Notes under the pieces: generated by a model | Told to the model about the DNA's origin: nothing | Databases searched by the model: none | What the model saw: only the letters and a program-made list of their open reading frames with translations | Position numbers and translations under genes: made by a program | From: Onthophagus taurus | Lineage: Eukaryota; Arthropoda; Insecta; Coleoptera; Scarabaeidae | Length of the DNA stretch: 64,000 nt | Direction: 5' to 3' | Assembly (NCBI RefSeq): GCF_036711975.1 | Contig: NC_091971.1 | Location: 19,351,501-19,415,500, forward strand | Part shown: positions 1-64,000 of the stretch, in pieces | How positions within the stretch are numbered: position 1 is the stretch's first letter | Layout: every line of letters starts with the position of its first letter

Positions 1-12744
<12,744 letters not shown>

Positions 12745-23000: not shown

Positions 23001-26000
23001 TGAAAGTATCCTAAAACTTTTTTGTCTCTCTAAAATTTTTCCAAAAACGACTAATTTTTGAGAAAAAAAATAATAAAGCAACACTGCCCGTTCAACAACG
23101 GGGTTGTCGATCAAAAGTTGGAATGAATTTTTAATGAAAAAATCTTAGTAGGCTTTGTCAGAAATATTTTTGACGTTTAAATGTCAGTGGTTTTCTTACT
23201 ATTATTATTGTTTTTCAAATTAATTTATGAATAAAGTTCTACCGCATTTACGCTCGTTCACTCGACGTTTCAAAATTTTAAATAAAACAATAATAATAGT
23301 AAGAAAACCACTGACATTTAAACGTCAAAAATATTTCTGACAAAGATTGCTAAGCCTGCTAAGATTTTTTCTTTAAAAATGCATTCCAACTTTCGATTAA
23401 CAACGCTACAGCTTAACAGTTAGTGTTTGCTTAATTAATTTTTTTCTCAGAAACTATTAACTTTTCGAAGAACATCAGAGTGGCAAAAAAGTTTTAGAAT
23501 ATCTTCGTCTATCTAAATAAAATATTTCCAATGTATTTATCATCGTCATAAAAAAGATCTAGACAAAAATTGAACGGGGGTGGTTATGTTTAGTAACTTA
23601 GAAGGGAAGATTGAAAGTACAAATAGGCTCGAAACATGCCCTATTATAAGCTAACCATATTTCCCAAATTTCATTTACTTGGTGTTAATGGTTTTCGGGC
23701 AAAATAAAATAAACCAAAATTTTTCGCCATTTTTGAAGGGGCGTAGCTCCGGAGGGGAGTCGAAATCGCTGATAGTTTATATGAGAAAGTACCCTTAAAA
23801 TTGCCTAAAGAAGTTTGGGCACGTCATTCAGATACACCCTGTATATACAGGGTGAGTCAGAAAGAATGGGAAATCCGAATACTGGAGACACTAGACACCA
23901 AAATATGACGATTTAACCTAACATGTCTTATACAAATGTCGGTGGTTTTTAATACACAGGGTGTTGAAAGTTAAATTTTTATTTCGAAATTTCTTGATAA
24001 TTTTGAAGGTTTTTGTACTATTAACATAAAATTTGGTAGTTAGATGTTTTCAAGCATGAGAAATACGAATTTGATATTTGTTTTGTGATTACTCGTAGAG
24101 GGCGCTAGATACACACTGTACGTTTAAGATATCAAGTCATGACTATTTTGTCAGTTGAGGTATGGTGAATTAGAACCAGAAATCTGAAGGAATTTTCAAT
24201 TCTGCACAAAAAAGGTACTCTTGCTTACATTGTCTAAGTCTACTGGTTTCCAAGTTATCTGCTTTTAATTATTTCAAAGTAATTTTAAGGTTAACATTTA
24301 AAATCAGTAACACACAGTAACTATAGCAATTAGTAACGATAATAATCGATAACAATAACAATAGAATATTGTGACCATTTTCAAAAATCCAGTTGACTTA
24401 AATCTGGATTTCTCATTGTTAAACAACTCATTATGTCGTGGCATTGTCAAATTGGTAATAAAATTGGTAAAAATGATTATTGCACACGGAAATTAGATCA
24501 ATGTTGACAATTAACAAGCAATTGTCGAAACATAAGCGGAAAAATATCCCAACTTTGCTTATGTTAAAAAATAAATATTTTAGAAGAAAAAATACATTTA
24601 AACATTTAAAAGTAAATAATTCGAAAACCGATAGACTTAGACAATTTCAATAAAAGTACCTTTTTTATGTAAAATTGAACGCTCTTTGTGATTTGCAGCT
24701 CTTATTGGTCATAGCTGTCGAGCCAAAAAACTTATGATTTGATTTATCAAACGAGCAGCGTGTATCTAGCGCCCTCTACGAGCAATAACAAAACAAGTTT
24801 CAAATTCGTATTTCTCATGCTCGAAAACATAAAACTACCACATTTTATGTTAATAGTACAAAAACTTTCAAAATTATCAAGAAATTTCGAAAAAAAAATT
24901 TAACTTTCAACACCCTATGCCTCGAAAACCACTGACATTTGTATAAGAGATGTTACGTTAAATCATCATATTTTGGTATCTAGTATCTCCGGTATTCGGA
25001 TTTCCCATTCTTTCTGACTCACCCTGTATATACATATTTATATATCAATAAAAAGCAGAACTAAAACAAAATAAATGTTTGGCAGAAAAAAGGTGCGGGG
25101 TCAAATTGCCACAAAAGTGGTATTTGTTCTTCCACCCAGCCCCATTACAAAAACCCGATTGTACGCTGAGCAGAATATTGCAAATATTTACATATTCCTT
25201 CAACTGCGCTTCAATAATTCTTTCAGCCAATTTTCCTAAAACAGGCAGAATACTTATTGGTCTTAAGTGACCAAACTCTGTAACATTTGACTTTTTTGGT
25301 AATGGTTTGACCTAAGATCGTTTCCAACATGCAGGGAAGATAGTTTCTGCAAGACAAGCATTTATTAAATGAGTAAGATATGGTACTATATGCGGGGAGC
25401 ACAATTGAACACATGAAATGTTTAGACCATCAACGCCCGCACAGTTTTTTCGAAGTGATGAAATAACCTGTAACACATAGTCTTCACTAACCTCACGGAA
25501 CTTGAATGAATTGTTATTAACTGGATTGGAAATGTAAAAGTCATACAACTCCCGACACATTGGCATTGCAGGAATAGAGTCTACAAAAAAATCATTAATA
25601 ATTTGTTGCGGATCTTTTAAACAATCGGGAATTATTGTTTTTCGCATTGGAGCTACATTTACATGCCTTAAAAAGTTCCACATTTCTCGACCATGATAAG
25701 CACATTTCCCAAGAGTATACTCAAAATATGCACGCTTTTCCCTACGAATCGCTTGATTTGTTAAATTACGCAAGGACTTGTAATATTCCCATGTCGCTTG
25801 ACTATTACTTTTCTTAAAAGACCCATATGCAGAATCTTTGAGACGCTGCATTTTTCGAATTGTGTAAGTCAACCATGGGGCCGGCGCACATAAGGCCGTA
25901 TTATCAATTTACGACGACAAAAATGTAAACTATGATTTTATTTGATATTCTGATCAAAAATGCTTATGTAGAGCCTATTTCATAATTATCTTTCAGAAAA

Positions 26001-29000
26001 ATACCTAATTAGAGTTAGTTGGTATCAGGTGCTTATAGTATGTTCTAATTAAAAAAAAACAGTTCAAAGTCAAATTGTTACTAGACAAAATAAGAAAAAA
26101 ATGCCAATATACATGTGGCCTCAAAGGCATTATTTTCGATATACAGGGTGGAAAAGTTTCAATTATTCGAATTTTGCGTTTTTCTCCAGTATCTTCTGAA
26201 ATAATTGTTTCAAATTTGATACATTTATTGTCTTTTAGAATCTCTATAAGAAAATATTAATACCGTCTATGGCAGTACACAGGGTGTTCATTTTTTTAGT
26301 GTCCGATCCATATACGTTCCGGAACCTTTTCTTTTTGAGTACCCTGTACAGATTCTGATATTATATTCCAACTACCTGTCCTTTTATTCGCCTTTTTGGT
26401 GTTTTGGATTATTATCGAATTTGTTGTTGAAAATAGATAAAAATCTTCATATATCCTTGGTGCGCATGAATGGCTATTTTTGTAAATAACTCGAAAACAA
26501 TGACAAATTCGAAATGCAAAACACCAGTACAGTTGTAGAAAATGACAGAGATTTTGAAGGTTATCAGAATGTATGCAGCTAAAAAAATAAATGGTCACCC
26601 TCAATGGTCACCTCATTTTGTCGATTACTACCATCCGTACCCCCTGAAGTATTTTCATATCATTCATTAACACCCTGTATAGTTTGAATTAGTAACATAA
26701 GTACATAATGTACAATTTTGATTAAAACATTATTTTATATAATATTATTGTTGGTTAAGTCCATCATAACACGTTAAAAAAAGTTTTTTTAACGCGTTGA
26801 CTGTATTGCTTAACGTGTTACGATTTTAATATTTAATGTTAATTTTACTTCTAATGTCTGATGTAATCTTGTTTAATTGAAAATTTTGACAAGCTCTCCC
26901 AAGACGGCTAGGTAGCCGAAACTAGTAAGAGCAAATGAGTAAAAATCACCGGAGTATACGAAAACAGATTTTTCAAGTTACTATTATTTTATATGCACAT
27001 CCTCATCATCGTTATTATCATCAGACTCCTCACCATTACCTTCATCATCATCACCAAAGTAAGTATGTTGCCTTAGCATGCTTAATACAACTTCATTGAA
27101 TTGGGTTTTACTTTTTTTAGTTTTTTTTCGATTATTTGTCACAATAGGGTCCGAAGATACAAGCATCCAGTTAAATATGTCAGTATTGGTGTTGATCCTT
27201 GAAGTTTTTCGGGAGTGATATTGTCTCAATTTTTTGTACTCTTTATGGCCTGTCTCAATTACGTCTTCTGATAGTTGACCCACTGGCAAAGGTAAAGATT
27301 TTATGATATCAGCTCCATGTATTAATAGTTTGTGAACACTGGCACTCATTTTGTACCAACCATAAAGCGACACAGCGATTTGTGCTGTTTCAAAACAATA
27401 GTTTTTAAATATATCTTCTTTAACGTAGTGCCCACAAGAAATGATGGACAGTATATTTGCAAATCTTTCTATTAATTTTTTATCGATTCCTGTTATTTGG
27501 GAAACAAGCAAAGGATTCTTAAAAAATTTCCGCGCTGAGTTTCCGTCGTTACTATTACCTCCACCTTGTTTTGGCTGATCAACTACGAGGCCCAATTTCT
27601 TATAAAATTCGGCCGCTATTTGATTTTTTCTTTCCTTTACTTTTTCTTTGTCATTTTCGCCCCTTGCTTGCCACTTCTGTAACTCCAATTTATATGCTAT
27701 ATGCAGTAAATATTCATAGCATCTAAGATGTGCATGAAGTATAGAAATTCCATATTTAAATGTGTCTTCATAACAGACTCTGTTCTTTAGTTTCTCTAGA
27801 TCATTTAAATCTTTAGGAGTAGCCTTACACACATTGCACGCTTGTGAACTTGAAGTATCAGTCAAAATGTTGACTGTCTTTCCATCCAGCATCGTACATA
27901 TGGGAATATGTATAAATTTTATTTGCTTAGTTCCTAGAACGATTATCGTGGGCTCCAATTTCAATATTTGTGTTTGTACTTCGTTATATTCTTCTTTTAC
28001 ATTTTGGACATTTTCTTTCTTTATTTTAAATCCAATTGGACGGCAATACCTTGTCGATGATGGTGTCGTATTCTTCCAATATATTTTTTTGTTACTGCCA
28101 TTAGATTCACACATTTGTAGTGGCACGATCGTACACAAAATGATGTTGGAATCCGCATATTCCGAATTATTGGCGAAATTTTGTTTGTAAATACTGTGTC
28201 CACCGCTGCCATCTAAGCCCCATTTATAATAAACTTCGATAGTATCACAGTCCTCCGAAATATTTTGAAGTATTACATCAGCCTGCACTTGTGCTAAACG
28301 TTGCGTAGTATGTATAAGAAGATCTATCACTGGTATCACAGCCTCGTTCTCAGTTATCATAATATTTGTTGGATAACACTTCCTCTTTGTCTCTGCTATC
28401 ACATGATATGAGGGATAAATATCAGCCCCTCTTTCTTTTGCTCCAAGTCGCATCGTTATGTAATCCTCTTTTGTCAACTCAAGATCCACTATAAGAGCTA
28501 AAGCTTCTTCAGGGCTGTACGGTCTTATATTAGCAAAGGATGACGTATCTTGCACCTTTTTCATTTTTTTTAATGTGTTGGGCGAAGATTGTATTGCTAA
28601 TTTCACAACCTGGGCTGCCGTTCTTTTGCCTGATTTCACCAAGCTTGATTCTGCAGCCAAGCACAGTGTTTCTGAACAGAGATTTGATACAATTGGTTCA
28701 ACATGTCGTTGCTTACTGCGTTGAGAGCTCTCTTCGAATAATTTTCTTGGCCTGCCTCGCTTCTTTGGTGCTGTTGCTGGAAGCTGTGGTGGCTGTATGT
28801 CCGGGAGTTTCAAGTCTTCATTAAGCCATTTCATATGCTTGTTGTTAAAACGCTCGTACATATAATTACAACCTCGCCATTTCGTCAAAACCTTCGTAAC
28901 AAACACTTTGACCACAAGTTTTATTTGTTTTGTACAATTTTCAGAAAGTTCACTAATGCTAAACTTGTCCAATATATACTGTAATAATTGTTCATTACAC

Positions 29001-32000
29001 TTTAATGACGATAACTTATAAAACTGTTTATTTTTTAACACTATGAACAGTTCTTTTCTCTTAATCTTTATTTTCATTAAAGCGGGGTCGCCACAACCTG
29101 AAAAATACCCTTTATTTAACGAAGGGGGAAACAAGGGGACTTCTATTTTATTTTTTGATGTTATTTATAAGATATTTTTTTGAACTAGTAAAAAAAAATT
29201 GGTGTACTTTTTGGAACTTTTTATATAATTCTAGCTAAAGTTGACATTTCAAAATTTTTTGAAGAAAATAATAAATGTTATATAATGTGCATCATATCTA
29301 AACTACGAACAACTGTTAAGTTGACAGTAGTGGCAGATTAAAGTACATACCTGACGCTTCAATATCCATATTGAAAAACTAACGATTTTAAATTTAGGAA
29401 AATATTACGAACGTAATTACTCTGTCAACAATTCACGCGTAACTAAGTGTATTCCCCGTGCAAAAGATAAGCCAACTTTGCGCACACGGGTAGGCTATTC
29501 TGTTACGTTAACAAACAAAAATTTTACGGTTCATGTCTGACTAGATTATAATGAACATTTTGAAGATATTTGTGATTAGTTTAAAGATAAAACTTATATC
29601 TATTTTTGTCGTCGTAATTTAGTTATTTGTCCTTATGTGCGGCGGTTTAGTGAAACGGGCGGTAATAATAGGCACATGCCGATCCATCAAATCAATTAAA
29701 AGAGTATTAAGATACTACACTATATCAAATATATTAAAAAAAGGTAGTTGAAATAAACCAGATTGAAAGCGATAGTAATCAAAATTATTATAAGATCTGA
29801 AGGTTCGCAAATAGGAACAAGACTCTACGTTTTATATCTAGTAAACAATAGACCAAGTCATGGTCAGATGCATTAAAGTAACTAACGCCACTATCAAGAA
29901 CCAAATTAAGATCAGATATAAAAATTAAATCAATTAAAGTTGAAGAGGAAGCTGTAACGCGAGAGGCCGTTTGAATTATTTGAGTTACACCAAAAGAATT
30001 CATTAAATCAAGCAGTACTGCAGGCCAGGAACCACCACAAGCCATAAGGTTAACATTAAAGTCGCCCACAGCAGTAACGATATCATGCTCAGAGCATATC
30101 GTACTTAAATCATTCTCTAATTCCGAAACAAAGGGAGCTGGAGCCAATTATTTTAATTAAAATTGCTTGATATTAGTGATAAATATATTTTCATTTTGTC
30201 TAAGTACTTTTAATATACTGTAATTAACTTCTTAAGTTGATAATGTAATGTTTCTTTGTTCAAAAAAGTTGAGCCCCCGTGTGTCCGGTATTACGGACGT
30301 CTATGGGCGTTCGGGTATCATCGGAAATTTTTACTGCTGTCTTCACACCGGTCAAGAAATTGTGTATCATTGAATATAAACTGGCCGGCAAAAAAAAACC
30401 GGCCACTATAAATTAACCAAAACTTCAAAGCTGGCTTTTTCGCGAACCGCGAATTCGATTTTGATGATTCTTTTTTTGATCGAAAGGTTGATTCTTCGGT
30501 AATAATCCTGCGATAGAAATTTTTATTCAGATTTTAATTTGAACATATACGGGCTGCAAGAATGAGAAAAACTTTTTTTCTCGAAATTTGTAATACCCTG
30601 TGGGGTACAGCTGTTACAGCAGATGGTGTTAACTGGAATGAAACGGTAGCCCAATCTTTTCTGAACATTTTCTTTTTTTTATTCACTGTTATCTCTGTTA
30701 CTAACGGAGATGCAGTGTTTTAAAGCGAACGCCTGTGAAAACAAGACAAACAAACATAAAAAATATAATTTCGAATAGTAAGTTGACAGTTGTTAAAGAT
30801 TTCCACAGTCTTTTAACATAATAGCAATGCCGTTGTCAGTCACTGACGTTGCGCGTATTGTTAGTTTAGATTGTTACTTTGACAACAGCAGTTGATGACC
30901 GATTTATTGTTCTAAACACTCTGAGGAATCGTAGAACGACAGCTGTAGAAACTCGGCACCGTCTTCAAATGGTGCGTAGGGTTGACGTAAGTGAAAGAAC
31001 CATTCATCGAAGACTTGCTGAAAGTGATCTGACTGCAAGAAGAATTGCCAAAAGACCGGGGCTGCTCCAGAGACATCGGCTAGCACCTCTTCAATTTGGG
31101 CGCGTACATATGAACAATGGGGTAAGGTGCTCTTCACTGACGAGTCCCGATTTTGTCTCTGGTCATGTGATGGTTGAGAACGAGTGTGGAGATGTCGCAC
31201 ACAGGCGAATTTTTTAAAAATCTTGGCCAAAATTGGAAAAATTTAAGGAATAAGATGCGGAAGTAACGGACCAGCCTGTATATAAAAATGTAATAATAAT
31301 CTTTATTATGCTAATAACCCGAAGGCATAGGTAGATACAATTAAGTAAAATCGCAGTATATCATAAAATACTTCATCCTTGTTAATTGTATAGATATTTT
31401 TTAATTTCCACCAATTTTGAAGTAAAAAAATTGACAAAAATATCTTTTTGGCCAAGATTTTTAACTAATTCGCTTCTGTGCGTCGTAATGAAAAGTTTGC
31501 GACCTGCACAATTTCGGAAAGAGTACCTTTCCATGGAAGTTCTATTCCCACGGAATAGAACGGATTCATGCTAATGCATGACAATGCGCGACCGCACGTA
31601 GCACGTGTGGTTAGCGAATATCTTGATGAGGTAGGGTATTGAACGGATGGAGTGGCCACCGTGCAGCCCGGGCCATAACCCTATCGAATATCTTTGGGAC
31701 CAACTTCAGAGACGCATTCGTCGTCGTCCTGTCCTACCGGACAACCTTCAAGAGAGTTACGAATTGCTCTTGAAGAAGAGTTTGCCGCAATTCCTCAGGA
31801 ATCAATTACGAACCTAATCAGTTCGATGCCGCGGCGACCACATGAGGTTATTTTGGCTCGTGGGAGCACGCGCTATTAATTTTCGTGTTATTATTAATTC
31901 GCTACTGCCGGGGCAAAAGGTCATAAGTCTATTTTTTTTAATATGGCGTTATTCTTCATATTGAACAATTGTATCAACATGAAGAATTCAAATTTGCCTC

Positions 32001-35000
32001 AAACGCCATATTTAAAAAAAATAGACTTATGACCTGATTCTTATGACTTTATGAAAAGTGATTCGGGTACCCAGCTTTTGTTGTCAAGGTCGGTGATTTA
32101 CACTTTTAATAAAGATTAAAAATCTGTATAGGTAATCTGTACATCCTTCATTGTAAATTCCCGGCCACACCGAGCTTCTTCTACAGCTGTCATTCTGCGA
32201 TTGCTTAGAACAATAAAACGGTCATCAGCTACTATTGTCACTCGTCTTGTTTTCACAGGCGATCGCTATAAAATACTGCATCTTCGTTAGTAACAGAGAT
32301 AATAAAGTGAATAAAAAAACAAAATGCTCAGAGAAAATTGGGCTACCGTTTGATTCCAGTTACCACCCTCGGCTGTAGCAGCTGCACCTCACAGTGTATT
32401 ACAAATTTCGAGAAAAAAAGTTTTTCTCATTCTTGCACTCTGTATATTAATATCCGTATCAAATTAATATCCGAATAAAAATTTCTATCGCAGGATTATT
32501 ACAGAAGAATCAACGTTTCGATCAAAAAAAGAATCATAAAAATCGAATGAGTGGTTCGCGAGAAAGCCAGCTTTGAAATTTGGCTAAATTTTAGTGGTCG
32601 GTTTTTTTTTCAGTCAGTGTATTTAATGTATAACAATAAATACAGCTATAGGAAGCTACGTTTTATTGGAAAACTAAAAAAAATATAATTAAAAAGTCAT
32701 AAAGGCTAAGTACCTTAATCGTATACCCTTTCTTCATCATTGTTCATAATCCAAATTATTTAAAATGGAATTTAGACTTTTTGTACCTTATTCAAGCTTT
32801 TTTTAAAATGCATAGATATATTTGCCAATATAGGTCCTTGATGAACCTTAGTATTGCTCCAAAGTCTTGTTTCTTTATGTCAGTAGGTGTCAGGCAAACC
32901 TTTCCGAAAATTTTGAGTCTTAGGCGACCTCTGGCGACATAGTCACACAGAATGTGTTTTCAGCTTGTCCAAAGTTGAAGAGATGGTATGTTAAGCGCGT
33001 ATAGCCGGTCAGGAGATCTGACAGCGACCTTAGGTCCCCTTTTCTGAGGCATAAAACCTCTTTGGATTTCTTTTGCGACAGAGTCTCTTCTCCTGTGTGT
33101 ATCCTGGAAGTTCTTTCCAGCGGCAGGCTACCTTTGAGTCCATCGATGTATTAATCACTTGTTTTATGTTGCTTTTTTTTTAGTCCTCAGCCGGGTTAGT
33201 GTCCAATAAAGAGGGTCCTCGCTGCCTCTTTGGCCATCTTCTGTGCCTTTTCATTACCCACAATATCTTTGTGATCTGGAAATGAGTAACTTCATTACTC
33301 TTGAGACATGAACCTAACACGTGGAGGAGTTATCCTGACGTATTGGTGAGCATACCGATATTACGTCTTCAAAACTGAGCAAACTGTTTCTATATCATAG
33401 TTTGATGAGGCTTAAAATATTTTGGTCTATAGGTTGGATTAAAGACGTAACATTAGAAGATAAGAATTTTACAAAGATTATCCCATCTTTAGACCTCAGT
33501 TTTGTTGCTGGTGTGTAGAGTCTCTGCCATAAGATTCTGTTTTACCTGTAAAAGGAGACAGAATCTTGGTGAGGTGTTTTGCAAGCTGATACGTAGGAGA
33601 ATTTATAGTACTGACAATAGGGCATAGCGGGACATCTGGTTTATGGATCTTAAGTAACCCATATATTCTTGGAGGTACTGGGGATTGTACTTATAAACTT
33701 CTCTGTTGTTCTGCCGGGTATTTTCTCGGTTGGGTCCTTCTTTAATTTTTTGTAGGTGGCTGGATTGTAGGTGGTCAATCATCTAATTTATTATATTAAA
33801 TTTTATTATTATATTTTAGGATCATCATTCATATTAGACAAACACACTCCGTCCTCCTCTGATGATCAGGATTCTGAGTCAATTATTTCTTCGTTCGAAC
33901 TGTCACATATTCTTAAATCCATATCACGTACTTCTTCTTCTTCTTAAAACCAGGGGTATCCACTTGGTGTCTGGGCTTATATAGCCCTTTTACCACCAGT
34001 CACAATTTTTTTTTGTTGTATCAGTTTATTCTCACATAAGGTAGCCCTGTGGGGGATAAAGTTCCAAAGATCAGAGACAATTCAAATAAACAGAACTACC
34101 GGAAGGGGGGAATGATCCTTCCTTACTACCTTAACCCACCAAACCACTTTTACTTGCTTAAGCACCTATAACCCACCGTTATGCCTATAACCCACCGAAC
34201 GGCGACAGATGTACATCCCCGGGTCAACCCCTCGAAAGGATGAACATCTACCGAACAGTGATCCATGCATTAAAATAAAATCAAACAAAGATTCCTATCT
34301 TGCACAAAAAATAAAAAAGCATTCTCAAAACTCTAGCGTTATTGGTTGCCAAAAGCATACTAACATTATATGGAGGAAAAATGCCCTCCCTTCTCAGCTT
34401 AACAAACATTCTACTTCTGTCCAACTCATAAGTTTCACATGCCAAAATAATGTGGTTAAGATCACAGAGAATTTTGTGACAACTGCAGTTTGGAGAATCT
34501 ACCATGCCAATCCTGTACAGATGTGCAGGAAACATGCCATGTCCCACTCTCATGCGATTAATTGTAGATATCATGTGTTTAGATTCTGAACGTAATTGCT
34601 TATACCATGCCCCTTCTCTGACATCCCTCTTAATCAACCACAAGGCTCTGCCCTTGAATCTGCTGCTATCATCCCAATTCCGCTGCCATGAATCCAATAC
34701 ATCCCTCTTTAGTTCGTGGACAATGTCACCAACGTCCTTGCGTATCTGATACCATGGACCAGTGTCACCCGCTGCCAGACCATCCGCCCTCTCATTACCA
34801 ACAATTCCCACATGGCCAGGAATCCAAGCCAACTCAATCTTCAGTTCTTCCACAGTACACTGCCAGCTAAGTTCTTTAACTTTGTTCACCAGATAATGTA
34901 CCTTCGTCTTTCTTCCCATGGCCACCTCCAATGCACGGATCACACTCAACGAATCCGTGAATATCACCACTGGTGACACCCTGTTTGTCTTTACATAGTC

Positions 35001-37929
35001 CATCGCCCACCATACAGCAAACAATTCTGCCACAAATATGTTAGCATGATCCGACATTTTTCCGGAATGGGACAACTCCAAGTCGGGCGCATATACTCCA
35101 AAATGGACTCGTTTGGTTGGATCCCCCGTCACCGAAGCATCTGTAAAAATAAACTTTGCACCCGGCCACGACGACTGAACTTCCCGATTAAATACAGCAT
35201 TATAGTTAAAGCTAACTGCAGGCAATGTTTGTCTAAGTTTAGCACAGACTAAATCGGTTCTCACCTTGGGGGCATGCACATACACCTCAAAATCTACTCT
35301 GAACATGTCCAACACATTAGTGCGTCGCATATCTACTATTCTTGGTAGCAGGGTTTCGTATCTCTTTATAATCAGTGCTACTCTACTATCAGCCACCCTA
35401 CCATTTCCATGTAGTTGGCTCAAATTTTCCATTAGATTTCCTACCGAACCAGATCTACGCATAAGGTTTTTCACAACAAATTTATCCATTAACAGGCGCA
35501 ACCTTAAATCCAATGGCATAATATTCGCTTCCACCAATAGTGCATTAGTTGGTGTAGATCTAATTGCACCAGTAATAGCCCTCGCTGCCTGGAGCTGAAT
35601 GCCAGCTAACTTCCTAAACACGAGAACTGGGACAGGCAACATCAACCAAGTAACAAACTCCAGTCTAGACTGGATAAGTACCTTATAGAGTAGCGCAGAA
35701 ACCATCGGACCACATCCCCATCTAGTTGATGAAAGAGACCTCAGCAGATTAAGTGCCTTCTGACAGCTATTTACAATATAGTTCACATGCTCCCTCCAAG
35801 ACAGCCTCACATTCAGATGTACACCCAAGTATACTGTGTTCACCGTCGTTGCGATATTTTCGCCCCTTAGCCTAATTGGAGGGATGAGTTCAGGTCTTCT
35901 CCTGCGGCTAAAAAACATTGCCTTCGACTTACTAGGTGCCAGACTCAAATTTCGTTCCTCGAGAAAACTCGCTGTCACATTCAATGCATCGTTCATGATC
36001 TCAACTGCCAATTCAATGGAAAATAACGATATCACGTAGATCTTCCCTTAATGGCTTTTTCCTTTCGAAACTCTTCAAACCCAAAGAAACCACGCAGAAT
36101 CTAAGATATGAGCTGTGATATGCATCTATTCTCGTGCTGCATTTTTCCAAATTTTTAACAATAAAGACAACTTTATAAATTCAGCCAATGATATGAACTT
36201 TGAATTCTATTCTTAACTCATACAGTACAAACTCGAGCGAAATGAGCATGATTAATGATTGCTACCCGACGATAAAGGGTTAAACATCGTTAAAAACTAC
36301 AGCTAAATTTGTTTTTTCTTACTCACCAATAACGTTATTTTTTTTAAATAGGTATAGCCGGTCATGTTTATAAAACTGGAAAACTAATGAATATTACAGA
36401 TGTTTATCACAATCCATTCTTTTATAAAAAACTTGATGAGATGACTGATTTTCGTACGAAAAATATTTTATGTTTTCCGATACGAGATGAAAAAGGAATC
36501 ATAGGTGTTGCTCAACTTTGTAATAAAAAAGACGGAACCTTTACCGTAGACGATGAAGATGTCGCGAAGTCTTTTAGTGCTTATTGTGGTTTGGCAATAA
36601 TGCATATGATAGCGTATAAACGAATGCAAGAAGCTCAAATAAAGACTCAATTAAGCAATGAATTAATGATGTATCATATGAAAATCGACGACGATATGTT
36701 TAAGAAATATCTTAAATGTAAAATTAAAACGACGAAATTTCCGACGTTCGACGAATTTAATTTCTTGCCTAGACAAATTGATTATAATGATAGTCCGTGT
36801 TACACTATTGAAATGTTTAAAGATTTGAATCTTGTTGAAAAGTTCGGAATTAAAATGGACTTGTTGACAAGATTTATTTTGTACGTTATGAAAGGATACA
36901 GGGATACGCCGTATCATAATTGGAGACACGCTTTTAGTGTTACGCATTTCGCTTACACGTTAATTAAGAAATGTAAGTTAATTGAGAAAAATTTCCTTAC
37001 ACATTTGGAAGCGTTGGCTCTTCTAACATCATGTTTGGGGCATGACGTTGATCATCGGGGAACAACGAACGCTTTTCAATTGAAAATTGGATCTCCTTTA
37101 GCAAATTTGTATTCGAGTGAAGGTTCCGTTATGGAAAGGCATCATTTATCACAAACAATTTGCATTTTAAATACTCAAGTAAGAGACATTTTTAAAATAA
37201 AATACACAAACTTAAATATTTTTTTTTTAGAAATGTAACTTTTTAGAATGTCTTGATAATCAAAGTTATGAACTTTGTATAGATTATATCAAAGATAACA
37301 TTTTAGCAACAGATTTAGCAAATCATTTCAAAATTTACCCCGAATTAGAACAATTTATTGATGATAGATTCATTAAGGAACAAATGGACCACCGCAGACT
37401 TCTTTTTTCACTTATAATGACTTGTTCTGATTTATCAGATCAAACGAAAGGTTTTAAAACATCTAAAGAGGTCGCCCAACTTGTCTACGAAGAATTCTTC
37501 AATCAAGGCGATTTAGAAAAGAAAATGGGTAATAAACCTTTAGATATGATGGATCGGGAAAAAGCTTCAATTCCCGATTTACAAATTCAATTCTTAGAGG
37601 ATGTTTGCCTCCCAGCTTATAAGTATGACACAAATTTTTTTTAAAACCATTATTTTACTAATTATTTTTAATTTAGTGTTCTAGCTCATTTATTTCCAAA
37701 AACATTATGTTTTCTTGATATTTTACAAGAAACCATAACTTATTGGGAAGCGTCGAAAACCGTTTTTGAGATGCATGCATTAAGGGGACAACGTTCCTTC
37801 GATATATTAATGTGTCCAACGCTTGAAGATGAAATTGAGGAAATTTTGCATCCTCCTGAAGAAATCGAGGAGGAAATATGTCATGATGATGTACCGTATT
37901 CGTTTGATCAAGATCCGAGTACCGCGTGA
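20013..37929 (+). CDS. Pde2: PDE2A-like dual GAF 3',5'-cyclic nucleotide phosphodiesterase
   Basis: Exons 20013-20231, 20285-20549, 20796-21152, 36352-37178, 37231-37622 and 37677-37929; GT/AG junctions in phase, 770 residues. The start has a CCACCATGG context. A degenerate GAF-A lies at about 80-215 and GAF-B at about 240-385 ([26 protein letters not shown], then [13 protein letters not shown] as the NKFDE-type motif). The catalytic domain (about 400-730) has HNWRH (469-473), [10 protein letters not shown] (511-520), the metal Asp in [11 protein letters not shown] and the purine-binding Gln in [21 protein letters not shown] and SDQTKG with MMMYHMK-like spacing are PDE2 signatures, as opposed to PDE5/6/11. 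Family knowledge: PDE2 hydrolyses cAMP and cGMP, with cGMP allosterically activating through GAF-B. Intron 3 is 15.2 kb, splits GAF-B and is packed with transposons. Confidence 0.93.
21592..21848. repeat. Left half of a distant inverted repeat pair
   Basis: From ACCGGTGTGAAGACAGCAG to AACAGGCTCCAGCTCC. The inverse copy is at 30128-30355, about 8.3 kb away. Both contain a segment resembling GACGTCCGTAATA.CGGACAC and TTAATTAAAAT. In both copies the inner edge is GGCTCCAGCTCC, which at the right belongs to a LINE endonuclease frame. Confidence 0.75.
21849..22425. repeat. Four tandem ~140-150-bp repeats with a GGTTCGAAGATCCGAACC hairpin
   Basis: Units start near 21852, 22002, 22137 and 22278 and carry GGTTCGAAGATCCGAACC (varying to CGGTTGAAGATCCGAACC), CTTCTAGA, AGGGACCGCGGGGGTGAA and CAGTAGATTTTAATTACCCCTACC. 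Short frames across it are artefacts. The GC-rich blocks stand out against the AT-rich surroundings. Confidence 0.8.
22657..23841. mobile_element. Foldback element A with CAGG(G)TG ends (1185 bp)
   Basis: Inverted arms of about 550 bp with TA on both sides. The left arm starts CAGGTGTATCTGAATGACATGCCC; the right arm ends GTCATTCAGATACACCCTG. The arms include AGTGGTTTTCTTACTATTATTATTG and its inverse around 23185-23310, so they nearly meet at the centre. No coding content; frames inside are artefacts. Confidence 0.85.
23848..25026. mobile_element. Foldback element B with CAGGGTG ends (1179 bp)
   Basis: Directly next to element A with only TATATA between. Left end CAGGGTGAGTCAGAAAGAATGGGAAATCCG, right end its inverse, TA flanks. 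Arms are about 300 bp and include GTAGAGGGCGCTAGATACAC and GTGTATCTAGCGCCCTCTACG. Non-coding centre. Confidence 0.85.
25030..25886 (-). pseudogene. Jockey-like LINE, RT part (downstream half, split by Transib)
   Basis: Minus strand: [94 protein letters not shown] and LLSVQSGF. This covers the RT start up to motif 2 of a jockey-type non-LTR element. The frame decays after 25150, and foldback element B follows. It is the continuation of 29645-30147. Confidence 0.8.
25887..25925 (+). repeat. Left Transib end, 23-RSS-like
   Basis: Heptamer-like CACATAA at 25887-25893, 23-bp spacer 25894-25916, nonamer-like ACAAAAATG at 25917-25925. The V(D)J consensus is CACAGTG with ACAAAAACC, so the first four heptamer bases and the first seven nonamer bases agree. 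Confidence 0.75.
26144..26677. mobile_element. 534-bp CAGGGTG-ended insertion inside the Transib element
   Basis: TA-CAGGGTGG at the left and CACCCTG-TA at the right, but the arms are similar for only about 7 bp. An internal ACAGGGTGTTC (26279) suggests two nested or overlapping units. It lies between the transposase stop codon and the Transib left end. Confidence 0.5.
26984..29134 (-). CDS. Transib-like (RAG1 core-related) transposase, intact
   Basis: Uninterrupted 716 codons. An AT-hook-like KKRGRPRK lies at 124-131. The first catalytic Asp is probably D308 in [19 protein letters not shown]; the second is near [12 protein letters not shown] (418 or 426), followed by a CNVC zinc-type pair (433-436). 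A C-terminal block [23 protein letters not shown] (600-624) holds the likely catalytic Glu (623 or 627), then [14 protein letters not shown] and LVSSDP (641-662). An acidic tail follows. This order and spacing fits Transib/RAG1-type DDE enzymes, which make nick-hairpin breaks at heptamer-bearing ends. Length is in the Transib range. Family assignment is from motifs and from the ends, not from an alignment. The start Met lies 505 bp inside the right end; an alternative start or upstream exon is possible. Confidence 0.82.
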   Translation of the reverse strand: MFPPSLNKGYFSGCGDPALMKIKIKRKELFIVLKNKQFYKLSSLKCNEQLLQYILDKFSISELSENCTKQIKLVVKVFVTKVLTKWRGCNYMYERFNNKHMKWLNEDLKLPDIQPPQLPATAPKKRGRPRKLFEESSQRSKQRHVEPIVSNLCSETLCLAAESSLVKSGKRTAAQVVKLAIQSSPNTLKKMKKVQDTSSFANIRPYSPEEALALIVDLELTKEDYITMRLGAKERGADIYPSYHVIAETKRKCYPTNIMITENEAVIPVIDLLIHTTQRLAQVQADVILQNISEDCDTIEVYYKWGLDGSGGHSIYKQNFANNSEYADSNIILCTIVPLQMCESNGSNKKIYWKNTTPSSTRYCRPIGFKIKKENVQNVKEEYNEVQTQILKLEPTIIVLGTKQIKFIHIPICTMLDGKTVNILTDTSSSQACNVCKATPKDLNDLEKLKNRVCYEDTFKYGISILHAHLRCYEYLLHIAYKLELQKWQARGENDKEKVKERKNQIAAEFYKKLGLVVDQPKQGGGNSNDGNSARKFFKNPLLVSQITGIDKKLIERFANILSIISCGHYVKEDIFKNYCFETAQIAVSLYGWYKMSASVHKLLIHGADIIKSLPLPVGQLSEDVIETGHKEYKKLRQYHSRKTSRINTNTDIFNWMLVSSDPIVTNNRKKTKKSKTQFNEVVLSMLRQHTYFGDDDEGNGEESDDNNDDEDVHIK
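29601..29639 (-). repeat. Right Transib end, 23-RSS-like
   Basis: On the minus strand: CACATAA (29639-29633), 23-bp spacer (29632-29610), ACAAAAATA (29609-29601). The spacer's inner part AATTACGACG is shared with the left end; the outer part differs. Confidence 0.75.
29645..30147 (-). pseudogene. Jockey-like LINE, endonuclease part (upstream half, split by Transib)
   Basis: Minus strand: [44 protein letters not shown] and [19 protein letters not shown], the C-terminal part of an APE-type endonuclease with the GDFN and SDH catalytic motifs. Further on, [15 protein letters not shown] leads to the Transib insertion. Upstream, the frame stops at the inverted repeat 30128-30355. Confidence 0.8.
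30128..30355. repeat. Right half of the distant inverted repeat pair
   Basis: Inverse of 21592-21848, from GGAGCTGGAGCC to CTTCACACCGGT. It overlaps the LINE start for about 12 bp. Confidence 0.75.
30855..31879 (+). pseudogene. Tc1-like transposase, broken
   Basis: The N-terminal part reads [20 protein letters not shown] and [19 protein letters not shown], the paired-like helix-turn-helix of Tc1 transposases, then [14 protein letters not shown] with a catalytic Asp after a frameshift near 31125. After the insertion 31205-31474 it resumes with [28 protein letters not shown] (third catalytic residue region) and ends [16 protein letters not shown]. Frameshifts and the insertion make it inactive. 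Confidence 0.8.
31205..31474. repeat. 270-bp palindromic insertion in the Tc1 transposase
   Basis: Arms GCGAATTTTTTAAAAATCTTGGCCAAAA and TTTTGGCCAAGATTTTTAACTAATTCGC are inverse; the centre is AT-rich and non-coding. Confidence 0.6.
31918..32035. repeat. 118-bp hairpin MITE
   Basis: AGGTCATAAGTCTATTTTTTTT..TATGGCGTT is inverted at AACGCCATA..AAAAAAATAGACTTATGACCT, with a further inner palindrome near TTCTTCATATTG/CAACATGAAGAA. It lies in the 3' part of the Tc1 element. Confidence 0.7.
32740..33330 (-). pseudogene. LINE RNase H C-terminal remnant
   Basis: Minus strand: [20 protein letters not shown], the last catalytic motif of LINE RNase H (usually GH.GI.GNE.AD), here with Asp and Gln substitutions, followed by [24 protein letters not shown]. 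Degraded. Confidence 0.55.
33360..33480 (-). pseudogene. pogo-type transposase scrap
   Basis: Minus strand reads [25 protein letters not shown] and YRNSLLS, the conserved LPPN.T...QP.DQG block of pogo/Tigger DDE transposases. Only about 40 residues survive. Confidence 0.5.
33560..33790 (-). pseudogene. Penelope-like reverse transcriptase scrap
   Basis: Minus strand reads [18 protein letters not shown], then [18 protein letters not shown] [19 protein letters not shown], resembling the N-terminal RT region of Penelope-like elements (PKIHK...RPIVS...). Frameshifted. Confidence 0.4.
34007..36060 (-). mobile_element. 5'-truncated LINE with RNase H domain (I/Loa-like clade)
   Basis: A continuous 584-codon minus-strand frame (34281-36035) starts within the RT palm or thumb ([25 protein letters not shown]) and ends with RNase [11 protein letters not shown] (D), [11 protein letters not shown] (E), [11 protein letters not shown] (D), then [18 protein letters not shown] (H/D). 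A cysteine-poor tail with [20 protein letters not shown] (CCHC-like) follows. RT catalytic YADD and the endonuclease are missing, as expected for 5' truncation. The open frame indicates a recent insertion. The 3' end is probably at the T-run near 34007 on the plus strand. Confidence 0.85.
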
Positions 37930-63112: not shown

Positions 63113-64000
63113 CAGGGTGTTAGGTAAACATGCGGCAAAAATTCTAGGGGTTATTCCTTAGCCTATTCTAAGAATATTTTGTCTTACGATTATTTGTGAA
63201 AACGCTCTTTGTTTCGAAGATACAGGGCGAATAAAATTTGCGACAATTTTAATTGCGACAGCAATTAAACGGTTTAATTATTCGATTTCGCAAATCGTCC
63301 AAAGTCTCCACTGGAGTAGCGTAAACTAATGACTTCAGAGATCCTCAGAAAAAATAACCCAGGGGGTTTAAGTCTGGGGATCGAGCAGGGCATGCGTGTG
63401 GCCCACCTCGACCAATCCAGCGATTTCCGTACGTTGCTGTTAAAAAATTACGAGCAACCAAACTGAAATGTGGTGTTGCACCATCGTGCATAAACCATAT
63501 TGCAATTTTTATCGCGTATGGTACATCCTCCAGAAACTCAGGTATCGTTTCTGCCAAAAAGTTGCGATACATCACGCCAGCAAGCCTTCCTGGTAGAAAT
63601 ACCGGTCTAATTAGATAATCATCCACAATTCCAACCGAATGATCTTCACATACCTCATGCGGATTTTCATCTGCCCACACATGATTATTATAAAAATTCT
63701 TTATTGTATTTCTGGAGAAACTGGCTTCATCGCTAAAAAGAATCTGTGTCAGGAATAGAGGGATGCGAACTAATGTTTGCAATATCCATTGACATAACGC
63801 AATACGTGGAGGAAAATCAGCAGATAGAAGTGCTTGAAGGCGTTGAATGTGGTATGGGTACAACAAATTGTCCTTACGAATTTTCCAAACTATCCAATGA
63901 CTTACATTCAAAGTATTTGCAATTCTTCGCGTAGAACTACCAGGATCATCCTCTATCATGTCCAGCACATTCTGTTCCAATTGTACCGTTCTTGCAGTCA
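63113..64000 (-). mobile_element. mariner-like transposon with CAGGGTG end, running off the window
   Basis: Left end TA-CAGGGTGTTAGGTAAACATGCGG at 63111. The minus-strand frame 63345-63980 (211 codons, open to the window side) has DDPGSSTRRIANTLNVSHWIVWK (helix-turn-helix), LFSDEASFSRN (catalytic Asp), WFMHDGATPHFS (second Asp), NRWIGRGGP and SPDLNPLGYFF, where the third catalytic residue should lie in SPDLNPL(D); it is Gly here, then a frameshift ends the frame. So this copy is probably inactive, though recent. Confidence 0.78.

Follow-up and report, generated by a model that had tools for sequence, protein, structure and literature searches.

A complete Transib transposon with CACATAA ends in Onthophagus taurus, compared with other Transib families of the same genome

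The antibody-gene recombinase RAG1 arose from a Transib-type transposase. Symmetric Transib ends have been described (PMC8355894; PMC8289069), autonomous Transibs typically occur as single copies or in very small numbers (PMC4411706), and PMC9435367 describes a GRP-type nonamer-binding domain (NBD) in both Transib subgroups, with symmetric as well as asymmetric ends in Subgroup II. For vertebrate RAG1/2, a large assay found that purine-pyrimidine-purine at heptamer positions 5 to 7 is favored more than 100-fold relative to pyrimidine-purine-pyrimidine, that position 6 matters most, and that GG after the heptamer ranks among the poorest spacer starts; its authors tie the heptamer preference to untwisting, the disfavored heptamer having its pyrimidine-purine (YpR) step at H5-H6 instead of H6-H7 (PMC9723617). 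Here, we analyzed a 64,000-nucleotide stretch of the genome of the beetle Onthophagus taurus (assembly GCF_036711975.1, contig NC_091971.1, positions 19,351,501 to 19,415,500 of the forward strand), which we refer to as the window and in which a sequence-only reading, made without database searches, had placed an intact Transib transposon. We consider it highly probable that this element is a complete, recently mobile, autonomous Transib of an HzTransib-like lineage. It is a well-preserved representative of a new family of a known kind, and its novelty lies in the comparison of ends at the sequence level. The family, the predicted fold, the exact borders, the CG-rich 5-bp duplication and a frame that is open where six relatives are broken can all be read from the sequence.

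The element occupies positions 25887-29639 of the window (3,753 bp), opening with CACATAA at 25887 and closing with TTATGTG at 29639. Each end consists of CACATAA, 23 bp and ACAAAAAT(G/A), and the two ends are identical at 31 of 38 positions, in exact agreement with the coordinates, end structure and flanking CGGCG of the sequence-only reading. A chance origin of the end pair was rejected, given its score of 25.5 versus a maximum of 20.5 obtained with the same scorer for 320 base-shuffled flank pairs, which were built from 16 non-window loci. By inspection of the flanking frames, the insertion interrupts a long interspersed nuclear element (LINE). A search of the same genome with the right flank gave nine matches including the window. 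Of the remaining eight, six (L050-L054 and L056) span the insertion point uninterrupted with a single CGGCG, and L055 and L057 do not align over the junction. These six empty sites fix the borders of the element as well as its 5-bp duplication. Inverted repeats starting with CAC and a 5-bp target-site duplication, both traits of the Transib superfamily, are thus present.

Both ends are kept in five copies of this family, namely, the window element and those at C2:29.00, C6:28.07, C11:2.87 and C3:10.46 (in the last, the left end is kept for its first 16 bases and is followed by a deletion). All five read CACATAA at both ends, with the same boundaries and duplication length; their duplications are CGGCG, CGGCG, CGCCG, CGCCA/CGCCG and CGGCG, respectively, i.e., four identical pairs and one matching at four of five bases. 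Seven further fragments, left out of the duplication comparison, comprise four with one end (three with CACATAA and one, at C3:17.7, with CACATAG) and three without ends. Of seven copies mapped onto the transposase gene, the window element alone has an open frame, the other six having stops or frame-breaking gaps. Over 1,739 sites shared by five copies (the two most diverged, C3_17 and C11_19, being omitted), the window carries one private change, which is synonymous, compared with 6 in C2, 16 in C11, 39 in C6b and 21 in C3_10, and the window and C2 differ at 9 of 2,103 sites. Recent movement of the window element is the simplest reading of these data, in line with the recently active lineage proposed by the sequence-only reading. 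That the element is instead a non-mobile relic or a domesticated gene, its frame kept for a host function, could be suspected from the one open copy among seven, but this is very improbable in view of the intact ends, the exact duplication, the insertion within a LINE and the close relatives with the same ends; the single private change fits recent movement as well as selection. The C2:29.00 copy holds a later insertion near one end, of ∼9 kb (G000:C2:29007484-29016442), bounded by long inverted ends (AGTAGTATAGAAACGCCG...) with what looks like a 9-bp duplication, ACTTATATC. Four copies of another sequence, which reads CACATAAATGATCGGACACTAAGCTATAG(C/T)ACAAAAAT, at G000:C7:7806154, C8:9991387, C8:10862624 and C11:3324420, also fit the first end pattern.

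The transposase is related by sequence to known Transib proteins, its predicted structure model has the Transib/RAG1 fold, and no different superfamily emerged. Its conserved blocks, D(308), D(417), CxxC(433-436) and SED..E(627), were all found, the D-D-E triad by alignment only, and an NBD-like RGRPRK motif lies at residues 126-131 (numbering follows the 716-residue frame; six are to be subtracted for the spliced protein). The frame of 716 codons (26984-29134, minus strand) is open, as had been noted, but the single uninterrupted gene drawn from it is less likely than a gene of two exons; its TTG start falls inside a predicted intron. Upstream lies ATGGATATTGAAGCGTCAG followed by a GTATGT donor, and on the acceptor side TTTTTCAG stands ahead of GTTGTGGC, so that the coding sequence is likely to be 29369-29351 joined to 29097-26984, for a protein of 710 amino acids. 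In a short exact-string scan, the exon 1/donor string was found in five of six other copies and the acceptor string in four of six. This recurrence, together with acceptor-like residues (FAG, FVSG, FCFAG) seen by eye just ahead of the homologous part in several relatives, makes it unlikely that there is no intron and that translation begins in the open frame, at the TTG or at the ATG of codon 20 (MKIKIKR...), even though the frame is open from 29134 and the nearest full relative, P0001, begins with methionine near this point in a record that may be cut. No further frame above 118 amino acids, and no RAG2-like gene, was found within 25887-29639, the shorter frames having had no profile search.

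Among described systems, the element resembles HzTransib of Helicoverpa zea (PDB 6pqn and related entries) in core sequence (∼36% identity), fold, D-D-E triad and 5-bp duplication. The alignment spans the zinc-binding region, in which Subgroup II Transibs lack an alpha11-alpha12 insert (PMC9435367). Since the solved HzTransib chain matches our predicted model only from residue 203 on, the NBD-like part of the window protein has no counterpart in it. The HzTransib ends are reported to have little or no nonamer similarity (PMC8289069), whereas ACAAAAAT follows a 23-bp spacer at each end of the window element. The core is also like that of the Subgroup II Transibs, from which the CACATAA heptamer may set the element apart (PMC9435367). 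As this paper already describes the GRP-type NBD in both subgroups, we dropped the NBD as a novelty. Vertebrate RAG1 is more distant (∼15% identity), and, in contrast to the RAG1 system with its 23-bp-spacer recombination signal sequence (23-RSS), no RAG2 was found in the element, which has a tail of TAA instead of GTG and 23-bp spacers at both ends, with no 12-bp partner and hence no 12/23 asymmetry. The equal spacing had been singled out by the sequence-only reading and is real; because symmetric Transib ends have been described, it is not unusual.

To place the heptamer, we looked at other Transibs of the same genome (290.8 Mb in 33 contigs). A protein search gave at least 65 matches, some of which are pieces of one copy; this is a lower bound, as 62 of 1,033 first-look candidates were scored. 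Many are other Transib transposases with 34 to 47% identity, and a sizeable share of these have no internal stop. The top-scoring named relatives are Brassicogethes aeneus protein products, in line with a beetle host. The flanks of 18 non-window loci were scanned for inverted pairs and their adjoining 5 bases (locus D was rescanned with more flank); CAC was demanded at both ends and is therefore not a finding there. Eleven loci (A, B, B2, M, N, Q, C, H, I, O and R) scored above the null, each with identical 5-bp duplications, while seven (D, E, F, J, K, P and S) gave no pair above the null and do not enter the counts of heptamers and targets. The eleven loci form seven families, five of them being joined as family B by near-identical ends, so that, with the window, the genome holds at least eight Transib families with placed ends. 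The heptamers are CACAGTG in A, I and O, CACACTG in B, CACATAC in C, CACAGTG/CACATTG in H and CACATAG/CACATAC in R. In family A (G000:C2:29772407-29775528; ends L060 and L061), both ends have CACAGTG, a 22-bp spacer and ACAAAAAT(C/A), and the duplication is CGGTG; these ends have the full RSS heptamer and are close to a 23-RSS. Matches to the nonamer ACAAAAACC were best at 22 to 23 bp; the window family and family A agree with it at 7 to 8 of 9 bases there, and family C at 6 of 9. No clear nonamer was found at that distance at both ends in B, H, I or O (R was not scored), and the nonamer was dropped as a general Transib feature here.

CACATAA departs from CACAGTG in its last three bases, as the sequence-only reading had it, but is not unique in this, given that families C and R also have CACATA. 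We treat a CACAGTG-like tail as a common but not a defining trait of Transibs, as positions 5 to 7 also vary in other Transib families of this genome. The YpR step lies at heptamer positions 6-7 in five of the eight families (GTG, CTG and TTG) and at 5-6 in the remaining three, i.e., the window (TAA), C (TAC) and R (TAG/TAC). Because CACATAA has its YpR step at 5-6, with a purine at position 6, and is followed by GG at both ends, the window element deviates from what RAG1/2 prefers on two counts. Across the eight families, taken with one element each, 8 of 16 ends have GG after the heptamer, and GG was dropped as a general rule. A search with the family C end pattern, allowing up to three mismatches, gave 31 matches (11 for a reversed control pattern), of which 13 were exact, and thus CACATAC by construction, and 9 had an R-type inner sequence with CACATAC at two mismatches; the other 9, with three mismatches, were not assigned, and none of the 31 had CACAGTG. 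CACATAC is therefore no chance mutation limited to a single copy.

We then compared the heptamers with a transposase tree of 52 rows, containing 43 of 49 relatives (500 to 760 amino acids), the window and eight other loci of the genome; for R, no more than 389 residues entered the tree. C and R are sisters (support 100/99), O, which has CACAGTG, is sister to both (100/100), and the window clade lies elsewhere. Given the well-supported branches, the CACATA label must have changed twice, in agreement with a 51-row tree without R. We tentatively propose, while regarding it as doubtful, that this genome contains two separate Transib lineages whose YpR step lies 1 bp off the RSS position, in the arrangement associated with the poorest use by vertebrate RAG1/2, and that their enzymes may depend on it. 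The alternative, which competes solely with the altered-register part of our explanation, is ordinary drift: this lineage would read CAC and the inner block and tolerate almost any bases at positions 5 to 7, so that CACATAA would be nothing special. We give drift somewhat less than an even chance. It agrees with the two class changes on the tree, with a CACATA label no more clustered than shuffled ones (165 of 500 as low), with the CACATAG of the old one-ended copy at C3:17.7, with V(D)J recombination being active on many non-consensus heptamers (PMC9723617), and with the lack of a matching protein change: the window and C share 8 private columns, the range over all 21 pairs among seven families being 7 to 35 (the count leaves out R and D, although both were in the alignment), and co-varying protein residues were rejected as a match to the heptamer. 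On the other hand, CACATAA stands at both ends in all five two-ended copies of the window family, the family C inner sequence was accompanied by CACAGTG in none of the 31 matches to its end pattern, and the YpR step stays at 6-7 in all five other families.

The old CACATAG copy, the 8 shared columns and several further points weigh against our explanation. CACATAA is YRR and not the full YRY anti-consensus, which is limited to C and one R end; the tree yields a count of heptamer changes and not which state came first; the window family is small, with 14 exact matches to the core of the terminal inverted repeat in 291 Mb; and the RAG1/2 rules come from 12-RSS measurements that included RAG2 and need not hold for Transib. 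We keep the altered end recognition of the sequence-only reading as a hypothesis, since changes common to the window and C transposases were not found in excess. A literature search found no paper joining Transib, transposase and CACATAA, but it did not include Kapitonov and Jurka 2005 or Repbase, so the heptamer may already have been reported.

Under our explanation, a transposase dimer would hold both transposon ends, with the NBD-like RGRPRK segment reading the A-rich nonamer-like block 23 bp inside, and the D308-D417-E627 core would nick at CAC and then cut by hairpin formation. The freed element would enter CRNYG targets, most often CGNCG, with a 5-bp stagger. The TAA tail would shift the flexible YpR step to 5-6 from 6-7, and the enzyme would have to untwist the heptamer in a different register, or else rely on it less than RAG1/2 does. 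If the transposases of the two lineages depend on the shifted step, the V(D)J rule for purines and pyrimidines in the heptamer would be something that can change with the enzyme, as opposed to a strict requirement of the cutting chemistry that both share. Related transposases, many of them open, next to CACAGTG-type and CACATA-type ends in one genome offer a natural test of heptamer rules; families O and C, for example, are a close pair of differing heptamer class (51% identity over 543 residues). Such matched material could tell whether the V(D)J heptamer rule resides in the DNA or in the enzyme, and also how a nonamer placed at 23 bp can function when neither end has a 12-bp spacer.

Concerning target sites, CGNCG is the duplication in 8 of 14 elements with identical duplications, its frequency in the sequence at hand being ∼1.0 to 1.3 per thousand positions, and in 10 of 16 once R and a further family B element at C3:15.8 are added (the C11 copy of the window family, matching at four of five bases, is omitted). 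In family B, CGNCG precedes 10 of 14 exact ends. The wider pattern C-R-N-Y-G fits 13 of the 16 duplications, the exceptions being GGCCG, CGGCA and CGTCT. Drosophila hopper and transib2 likewise make 5-bp duplications, with the target motif CCANTGG instead of a mostly CGNCG one (PMC3276498), and it is possible that C-R-N-Y-G is a target pattern common to these elements and the Drosophila motif.

Table 1. Coordinates of the transposon, its predicted gene and adjoining features (positions in the window)
Feature	Position	Strand	Basis
Target-site duplication CGGCG, left copy	25882..25886		Read directly; empty LINE sites
Target-site duplication CGGCG, right copy	29640..29644		Read directly; empty LINE sites
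Left terminal inverted repeat: CACATAA, 23-bp spacer, nonamer-like ACAAAAATG (last base 25925)	25887..25924	+	
Right terminal inverted repeat: CACATAA, 23-bp spacer, nonamer-like ACAAAAATA (last base 29601)	29602..29639	-	
Exon 1, ATGGATATTGAAGCGTCAG (MDIEAS...), ATG start, predicted	29351..29369	-	
GT-AG intron, 253 nt, predicted	29098..29350	-	Donor/acceptor strings in other copies
Exon 2 of transposase gene: catalytic core, NBD-like RGRPRK motif	26984..29097	-	
Possible small inverted-repeat insertion (ACAGGGTGTT...AACACCCTGT, possible TA duplication), 3' non-coding	26276..26681		By eye
Interrupted LINE, reverse-transcriptase-like part, outside transposon	25312..25872	-	Open reading frame by inspection; other repeat copies run through site
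Interrupted LINE, endonuclease-like part, outside transposon	29788..30147	-	Identified by inspection

Elsewhere in the window, inspection pointed to a HECT-type ubiquitin ligase-like frame (6322-7515, plus strand), a cyclic-nucleotide phosphodiesterase-like frame with GAF and catalytic parts (36387-37238, plus strand), a LINE-type frame with an RNase H-like end (34281-36035, minus strand) and a fragment of a Tc1/mariner-like or related transposase containing "HDGATPHF" and "SPDLNPL" (63345-63980, minus strand).
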